From: Rufibacter tibetensis
GTDB lineage: Bacteria; Bacteroidota; Bacteroidia; Cytophagales; Hymenobacteraceae
Direction of reading: 5' to 3'
NCBI RefSeq assembly: GCF_001310085.1
Contig: NZ_CP012643.1
Location: forward strand, 4,098,001 to 4,162,000
DNA length: 64,000 bases
A model generated the notes under the pieces. The model worked only from the letters and a program-made list of their open reading frames with translations. It did no database searches and was not told the origin of the DNA. Both the position numbers and the translations under genes were made by a program. This document shows, piece after piece, positions 33,517 through 35,654 of the stretch. Position 1 is the first letter of the stretch. Each line of letters starts with the position of its first letter.

Positions 33517-34590
33517 ATGGACGGAAATGCCATTATTCTCACCGATGGGTTGCTAAACCAATATCCCGCCAAAACCGCCCACGGCCTCATCAGAGGAACC
33601 GAACGCTTCAACATTGTGGGTGTCATTGACAAGATCTCTGCCGGAAAAGATGCCGGCGAAGTGGTAGACGGAAAGCACCGTAACATACCAGTGTACGCAG
33701 ATTTAGCCCAGTTTCTGGAAAACAGCCACTAAAAAGCCCAGTACTGTTTGGTGGGCATCGTCCCGAAGGGCGGGAAATTACCAGTCAGCATGAAGCAAAC
33801 AATTAGTGAGGCTATAAAGAAAGGGATGAATATTGTGAACGGCCTGCACGAGTACCTGAGCGACATGCCAGATCTGGCGGCCCTGGCGCAGGAGCACGGG
33901 GTACAACTGGTAGACGTGCGCAGGCCCAAACCCAAAAGCGAACTTCATTTCTGGACCGGTAAGATAAAAGACGTTCCCACACCGCGGGTAGCCGTATTGG
34001 GCACTGATGTACGGATGGGCAAACGCACCACCACCCGCCTGCTGACCCAAGCCGCCGAGGCAGCCGGCCTCAAAGCCCAGATGATTTTCACCGGACAGAC
34101 TGGCTGGATGCAGGGGCGCGGCAAAGGTTTCATCCTTGATTCCACTTACAATGATTTTGTTTCCGGGGAACTGGAGCACGCCATCCTAACCAGCTACGAA
34201 GAACACCAACCCGATGTCTTTTTCGTGGAAGGACAAGCGGCGTTGCGCAACCCCAGCGGTCCGTGCGGGTCTGAGTACCTGGTGTCTGGGCAGATGAAGT
34301 ACGTGGTGTTGCAGCACGCCCCCGCCCGAGTGTACTTTGATGACAACGAGGAACTGGGCATCAAAATACCGCCTGTTTCCACTGAGATAGAACTGATCAG
34401 GCTTTATGGCTCTCAGGTGATTGCTGTCACTTTGAATACCGCCGGGTTAACGCTGGAAGAAGCCCGAACCTACCAACAGCAATACCAGCAGGAACTTGGT
34501 TTGCCGGTTATCCTTCCGCTGGAAGACGGGGTTGACCAGATCATAGATATTTTGAAAAAGGAAGTTCTACAGGAGACCGCCAACCTATGA
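33517..34590 (+). pseudogene. DUF1611 (DgcN-like) gene interrupted by one in-frame TAA
   Basis: The reading frame begins MDGNAIILTDGLLNQYPAKT at 33517, runs to a TAA at 33730-33732, and continues in the same frame without ATG from the stop to 34590. Joined, the two parts give one normal DUF1611 protein of about 357 codons: an N-terminal Rossmann-like domain (FNIVGVIDKISAGKDAGEV) and then, across the stop, CLVGIVPKGGKLP, GMNIVNGLHEYL, ELHFWTGKI and a P-loop-like VAVLGTDVRMGKRTTTRLL. DUF1611 includes DgcN, reported as a D-glutamate N-acetyltransferase. A single nonsense change is the simplest reading; stop readthrough, a restart at a downstream TTG/GTG, or a sequencing error are alternatives. 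It overlaps the epimerase gene by 4 bp. Confidence 0.8.
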
Positions 34591-35654
34591 AGATCAAAGA
34601 GATTAACGTCTGGAAAGCGAATCTTGAGTTAACCCGCCCGTACACCATCGCCTTCAAGACCGTGTCTGCGGTGGAGAATGTCTTAGTGCAGATTGTAACT
34701 GAAAACGGCCTTACCGGAATTGGCGCTGGGAACCCCAGTTCAGAAGTAGTAGGGGAGAAACTCACGGAGACCCTGGAAGTTCTGGCCCCTGAAAACCTGG
34801 AGTGGCTGATTGGACAGGACATCCGCAGTTTCCAGCGGCTTTGCGACGAACTTCCCCAACGGTTGCCCCGCAACCCCGCCGCCCGGGCTGCCCTAGACAT
34901 TGCCCTGCATGATCTTTTCACCAAGTACCTGGATGTGCCCTTGGTATCTTTCCTGGGGCAGCGCCTGGAGTCTTTGCCCAAGTCCATCACCATCGGGATC
35001 AAATCTGTGGAAGAGACGTTGGCGGAGGCAGAAGAGTACATTGGCCGCGGTTTTACCCATCTAAAAGTGAAGGTAGGCCAAACTGTAGAGCAGGACTTGG
35101 AGCGTCTGGTCAAGCTCCGCGAAGCGCACGGGCACGGAATTACCATCAGGATAGATGCCAACCAGGGCTGGACTACCTATGACCTGGCTACGTTCTGCAC
35201 CCAGGCCCAGCCTTTAAACATAGAGTTGATTGAACAACCGCTTCCGGCTCCCATGATTGATGACCTGCGCGAACTACCGGATGCCGTGAAAGACCTGGTA
35301 GCCGCCGATGAATCTTTGCTTTCGCCCGCCGATGCTTTTCAGCTGGCTTCTGCACCCCGCGCCTGTGGCATTTACAACATCAAACTCATGAAGTGCGGCG
35401 GCGTGTATGCTGCCCGGCAGATTGCCGCCATCGCGCAACAAGCAGGCATTAACTTGATGTGGGGCTGTAACGATGAAAGCATTGTGAGCATCAGTGCCGC
35501 TTTACACGCGGCTTTCTCCTGCAGCAACACCCGCTTTATTGACCTGGACGGTAGCCTTGACCTGGCCCGTGATGTGGTTTCCGGGGGCTTTATCCTTGAA
35601 AATGGCCTGATGCGCCCTTACGGGAAGCCCGGTTTAGGGGTAGAACGGCTATAA
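34587..35654 (+). CDS. Enolase-superfamily dipeptide epimerase (L-Ala-D/L-Glu epimerase or DgcA-like)
   Basis: A 355-residue muconate-lactonizing subgroup enzyme. The catalytic lysines are Lys160 and Lys162 in HLKVKVG; metal ligands are Asp190 (RIDANQGW), Glu216 (ELIEQPLP) and Asp241 (VAADES); the second-face base is Lys266 in NIKLMKCGG. All are intact. Family members epimerise L-Ala-D-Glu from murein, or, as DgcA, racemise N-acetyl-glutamate after DgcN. The gene starts inside the last codons of the DUF1611 gene (4-bp overlap), which links the two functions. Cytoplasmic. The exact substrate cannot be fixed from sequence. Confidence 0.88.
   Translation: MKIKEINVWKANLELTRPYTIAFKTVSAVENVLVQIVTENGLTGIGAGNPSSEVVGEKLTETLEVLAPENLEWLIGQDIRSFQRLCDELPQRLPRNPAARAALDIALHDLFTKYLDVPLVSFLGQRLESLPKSITIGIKSVEETLAEAEEYIGRGFTHLKVKVGQTVEQDLERLVKLREAHGHGITIRIDANQGWTTYDLATFCTQAQPLNIELIEQPLPAPMIDDLRELPDAVKDLVAADESLLSPADAFQLASAPRACGIYNIKLMKCGGVYAARQIAAIAQQAGINLMWGCNDESIVSISAALHAAFSCSNTRFIDLDGSLDLARDVVSGGFILENGLMRPYGKPGLGVERL

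Follow-up and report, generated by a model that had tools for sequence, protein, structure and literature searches.

A gene of the DUF1611 family in the soil bacterium Rufibacter tibetensis is interrupted by a single in-frame stop codon, which is very probably an ordinary and very recent nonsense allele, carried by one genome of the Rufibacter group. The gene lies in a stretch of 64,000 nucleotides (assembly GCF_001310085.1, contig NZ_CP012643.1, positions 4,098,001 to 4,162,000, forward strand), which was analysed as a whole and is referred to below as the window. The initial annotation had listed a fresh nonsense mutation, a strain-specific loss, stop readthrough and a sequence error side by side without ranking them; a fresh nonsense mutation is the best supported of the four, because the stop is unique, lies one base from the codons of the relatives and is accompanied by no accumulated decay, whereas readthrough finds little support. 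The coordinates of the features are given in Table 1.

Table 1. Features of the interrupted DUF1611 gene and the adjoining epimerase gene (positions within the window)
Feature	Position	Strand	Remarks
DUF1611, 5' part	33517..33729	+	71 codons from the ATG; beginning of the N-terminal Rossmann-like domain
In-frame TAA (codon 72)	33730..33732	+	Relatives: Glu 12/13, Gln 1/13
DUF1611, 3' part	33733..34590	+	Remainder of DUF1611_N and all of the DUF1611 P-loop domain; 285 codons, then TGA
Candidate restart codons TTG 33748, GTG 33751, ATG 33790 (residue 92)	33748..33792	+	From sequence
P-loop-like stretch GTDVRMGKRTT	34000..34032	+	Intact, downstream of the stop; 'P-loop' label from Pfam
Dipeptide-epimerase-type enzyme, enolase superfamily, intact	34587..35654	+	ATG 34587 overlaps the DUF1611 stop by 4 bp

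The DUF1611 frame (33517-34590, forward strand) comprises 357 codons and is otherwise complete. Its translation gives 71 residues, the TAA and then 285 residues up to the TGA at 34588-34590, with the frame unchanged throughout; together with the Pfam matches, this confirms the earlier claim that two open stretches in the same frame, split by nothing but the TAA at 33730-33732, make up one DUF1611 protein. Read through the stop, the frame matched PF17396 (DUF1611_N) with 102.1 bits (profile positions 4-95 of 95; cut-off 22.6) and PF07755 (the DUF1611 P-loop domain, which starts at residue 144) with 200.7 bits (cut-off 25). The C-terminal piece yielded 201.6 bits for PF07755 and a partial match of 78.5 bits for PF17396 (profile positions 36-95 of 95), i.e., both domains lie above the Pfam gathering score in the piece and in the read-through frame alike; the 5' part by itself had no Pfam match. 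The GTDVRMGKRTT stretch is invariant across the homologue alignment. In a structure prediction of low confidence for the read-through protein (mean pLDDT 55.8), residue 72 is placed in a loop leading from helix 63-69 to strand 76-83; this modelled placement, to which no weight of its own was given, agrees with where the alignments to 2g0t and 2obn have gaps. Among named organisms, the closest relatives of the gene are found in Rufibacter and Sabulibacter, and its role is probably metabolic.

Regarding the genus group, 15 other genomes were sampled, of which 13 contain the gene and two lack it. None of these 13 copies has an internal stop, and all are open from a shared ATG, which is also the start codon in the window. 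The comparison proposed in the initial annotation, i.e., which codon of the relatives takes the place of the TAA, gave GAA in 12 copies and CAA in one, either being one base from TAA; the CAA-bearing relative is the sister of the window copy in the tree of both genes (support 91/93). Regarding the phylum, 395 genomes were sampled (three of them shared with the genus sample), and DUF1611 matches were found in 68 genomes at 71 places in total. The window copy is the sole case with an internal stop (0/70 among the others). Eight other copies had been flagged with one stop each, but recurrent interruption in the family was rejected when all eight were fetched along with four unflagged copies: seven had no stop in the aligned part, and in the eighth the stop at query residue 353 of 357 was the natural end. 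In the region 33727-33735, the codon just before the stop encodes His in the window and Pro in 12 of the 13 relatives, i.e., changes cluster at the stop.

The median pairwise dN/dS was 0.078 for comparisons with the window copy versus 0.082 among the other species, and 0.076 versus 0.078 when only the codons after the stop were considered; the first 71 codons are constrained equally with the part after the stop. As constraint is the same as in the relatives both before and after the stop, the stop is either very young or an error. When changes were assigned to lineages by counting codons shared by two relatives but not by the third, the DUF1611 gene of the window had 60 changes that were synonymous and 10 that were not; for its two neighbours the counts were 57.5 and 6.5, and 50 and 12, respectively. 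The share of the window branch without constraint had a point estimate of about zero and an upper 95% limit of 0.037-0.051, values that are approximate because multiple hits are left out of account and dS is close to 1. At columns otherwise uniform, five residues are unique to the window copy (0-4 in the other 13 copies), which is no clear excess, because the epimerase of the window also has five (0-11 in its other copies). All 13 relatives thus have a sense codon and an intact frame, and a long period of relaxed selection is limited to 4-5% of the branch, as would be seen with a recent nonsense allele.

The overlap of 4 bp with the downstream epimerase gene, noted in the initial annotation, was found again and is kept in 14/14 genus copies. 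The downstream gene is under normal constraint by dN/dS, which rules out decay of the whole operon; the earlier remark that the unit looks alive is borne out only by the sequence of the epimerase. Across 98 genomes (the own genome, genus, family and order), DUF1611 and a close epimerase were jointly present in the same 22 and jointly absent in 76, where 'close' denotes E-values of at most 2.9e-100, the next best match having 5.0e-57, a gap that was noticed after the fact. The two genes adjoin by coordinates in 19 of these 22 genomes. DUF1611 was absent from all 44 genomes sampled in the family's other genera. The occurrence of both genes in the same 22 genomes, as neighbours in 19, argues for their belonging to one pathway.

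With a nonsense allele, translation would halt after 71 residues, within the N-terminal Rossmann-like domain; the P-loop domain would not be made from the normal start, and, judging from the sequence, the DUF1611 protein is very likely lost. Translation of the epimerase, which normally begins within the final bases of DUF1611, may drop too, about 855 untranslated bases now lying between. Given that DUF1611 and the epimerase co-occur, the interruption probably knocks out a single step, carried out by the two enzymes on D-amino-acid or dipeptide substrates. The unchanged epimerase and overlap speak against a nonsense allele, and the lack of decay past the single stop would also be expected of a base-call error or of a still-working gene.

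At least four stop-interrupted genes were found in 1.85 Mb, about a third of the genome, i.e., DUF1611 and three more, and such losses are therefore normal here. A RibD_C-like gene (C1:3879234, reverse strand) is interrupted by an in-frame TAA at residue 43, a Glu in five relatives; in the relative G003 the gene has its own TAA at a different codon, and dN/dS is 0.04-0.08 in all pairs. The gene at C1:428131, which carries both a frameshift and an in-frame TAA and is open in nine other genus genomes (177-307 codons), is a clear pseudogene. A gene for an Mrr-type restriction endonuclease (C1:4748550) is split by a TAG, and an unbroken homologue with 48% identity occurs on a Proteus plasmid.

These genes come from several scans. 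Of 364 gene-like ORFs taken from relatives, 249 matched the window at 60% identity or more, and 22 rows were flagged, ten of which are DUF1611. Two of the other 12 rows were checked: one has a stop just before the real start, and for the second, where the strand concerned bears two clean ORFs in the window, the stops were taken to precede a start. The other ten, which were not checked individually, are attributed to differing starts, to ORFs in the wrong frame or to ORFs that are short and weak. A reciprocal orthologue test compared 667 kb of the own genome with 680 kb of the relative G011, rows without third-position preference being dropped before counting. The own genome gave nine flagged rows among 260 orthologues: two internal (DUF1611 and the RibD_C-like gene), one at residue 101 of 115 and six within the first 34 residues. 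G011 gave four among 258, at residues 20, 12, 17 and 43; these four and the six N-terminal rows are read as start differences, although they were not checked one by one. A reference-free scan, whose first thresholds missed the DUF1611 case and were relaxed so that about 74% of in-gene points pass, gave 18 candidates in 864 kb; extended and with a competing-frame filter, it gave 32 candidates in 1.85 Mb of the own genome and 22 in 0.68 Mb of G011. The candidates were judged by eye, and in the own genome four were accepted as interrupted genes; in most of the remainder, likewise seen by eye and not one by one, a start codon follows shortly after the stop or the ORF seems to be in the wrong frame.

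A sequencing or assembly error, the true codon at 33730 being a sense codon and the gene intact, is unlikely. Such an error would fit the complete absence of relaxed constraint, and the base has been seen once, in one genome of the species; the change is, however, a substitution and not an indel, the preceding codon also departs from that of the relatives, and DUF1611 is the only gene in the window read as interrupted. Frameshift rows were found in neither genome of the reciprocal test (260 and 258 orthologues), which over the 667 kb of the own genome suggests good accuracy and argues against a poor assembly, and the frameshift in the gene at C1:428131 indicates that real loss occurs in this genome. 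Translation may instead restart shortly after the stop, which would then be tolerated, and yield a shorter protein. Candidate start codons lie 15-57 nt past the stop, the second part is still constrained, and even a product from the ATG would contain the whole P-loop domain. The initial annotation had found no ATG near the start of the second part; TTG and GTG are indeed nearer, but an in-frame ATG follows 57 nt after the stop, at a Met conserved in the homologue alignment. Restart is nevertheless very unlikely: it would split the N-terminal domain, the first 71 codons have been equally constrained until now, and homologues beginning at 33748 or later, which had been named as the sign of a true second start, were not found among 21/21 homologues and 48/49 named-genome loci (the 49th is cut by a contig end). 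As the start in these 48 loci precedes the window's second part by 55-100 codons, a second start is ruled out as the ancestral form.

Readthrough of the UAA, which would give the full-length protein, is highly improbable. Constraint is retained on both sides of the stop, and the RibD_C-like gene shows the same pattern, i.e., a TAA in a constrained gene with another species having its own TAA, which can be cited for readthrough and against a nonsense allele. The same applies to the excess of Glu sites: in three of the four interrupted genes the stop falls at a Glu (or Glu/Gln) site, the fourth site being unassignable and four cases being few, whereas Glu codons make up only about 13-16% of the one-step routes to a stop. 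On the other side, no suppressor tRNA was found among 37 tRNAs, all of which have ordinary anticodons and none of which reads UAA, UAG or UGA; both release factor genes are present, prfA above its cut-off in an open frame and prfB above its cut-off with stops flagged; and TAA ends 266 of 418 long coding frames sampled in 864 kb of the own genome. The RNA around the stop has no unusual fold, being no better than shuffled sequence (z -0.32), one interrupted gene is also frameshifted, and the stop is not conserved in the genus (0/13) or the phylum (0/70). In the prfB match (C1:771343-772380) the flagged stops are a TGA and a TAG, presumably reflecting the programmed frameshift known for prfB together with upstream sequence. 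It is scarcely probable that some Rufibacter tolerate UAA in constrained genes, near-cognate decoding (e.g., by tRNA-Glu or tRNA-Gln) or efficient restart keeping the DUF1611 and RibD_C-like proteins working; if they did, in-frame UAA codons would be nearly neutral in some Rufibacter.

With a recent nonsense allele as the preferred reading, the DUF1611 gene should be annotated as interrupted and not as a protein of 280 residues with a TTG start, and the tightly linked pair offers a natural test of how far the epimerase needs its partner.

Compared with an ordinary recent nonsense pseudogene or loss-of-function allele, the gene has the same single stop, intact relatives and lack of accumulated decay, and no difference was found. 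The read-through frame has the domain order of the DUF1611 family (PF17396 and PF07755; solved relatives 2g0t, 2obn and 7xrj), from which it differs by the stop at codon 72. It is homologous over most of its length to the N-acetyltransferase DgcN (NF041892), with 147.5 bits when read through, which is far below the equivalog cut-off of 480, as are the scores of two intact relatives (139.9 and 142.1). In PMC10845958, DgcN-DgcA is described as turning D-Glu into L-Glu; the acetyl step is taken from NCBIfam names. DgcN has the racemase DgcA as its partner, and the DUF1611 gene is likewise paired with a racemase/epimerase of the enolase superfamily, so that a relation between the two pairs may be considered as a lead only. 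The epimerase of the window scores better as an L-Ala-D/L-Glu epimerase than as DgcA, below both cut-offs, and its closest solved relative is the dipeptide epimerase 3rit/3ro6 (E 2.2e-117, residues 1-352).
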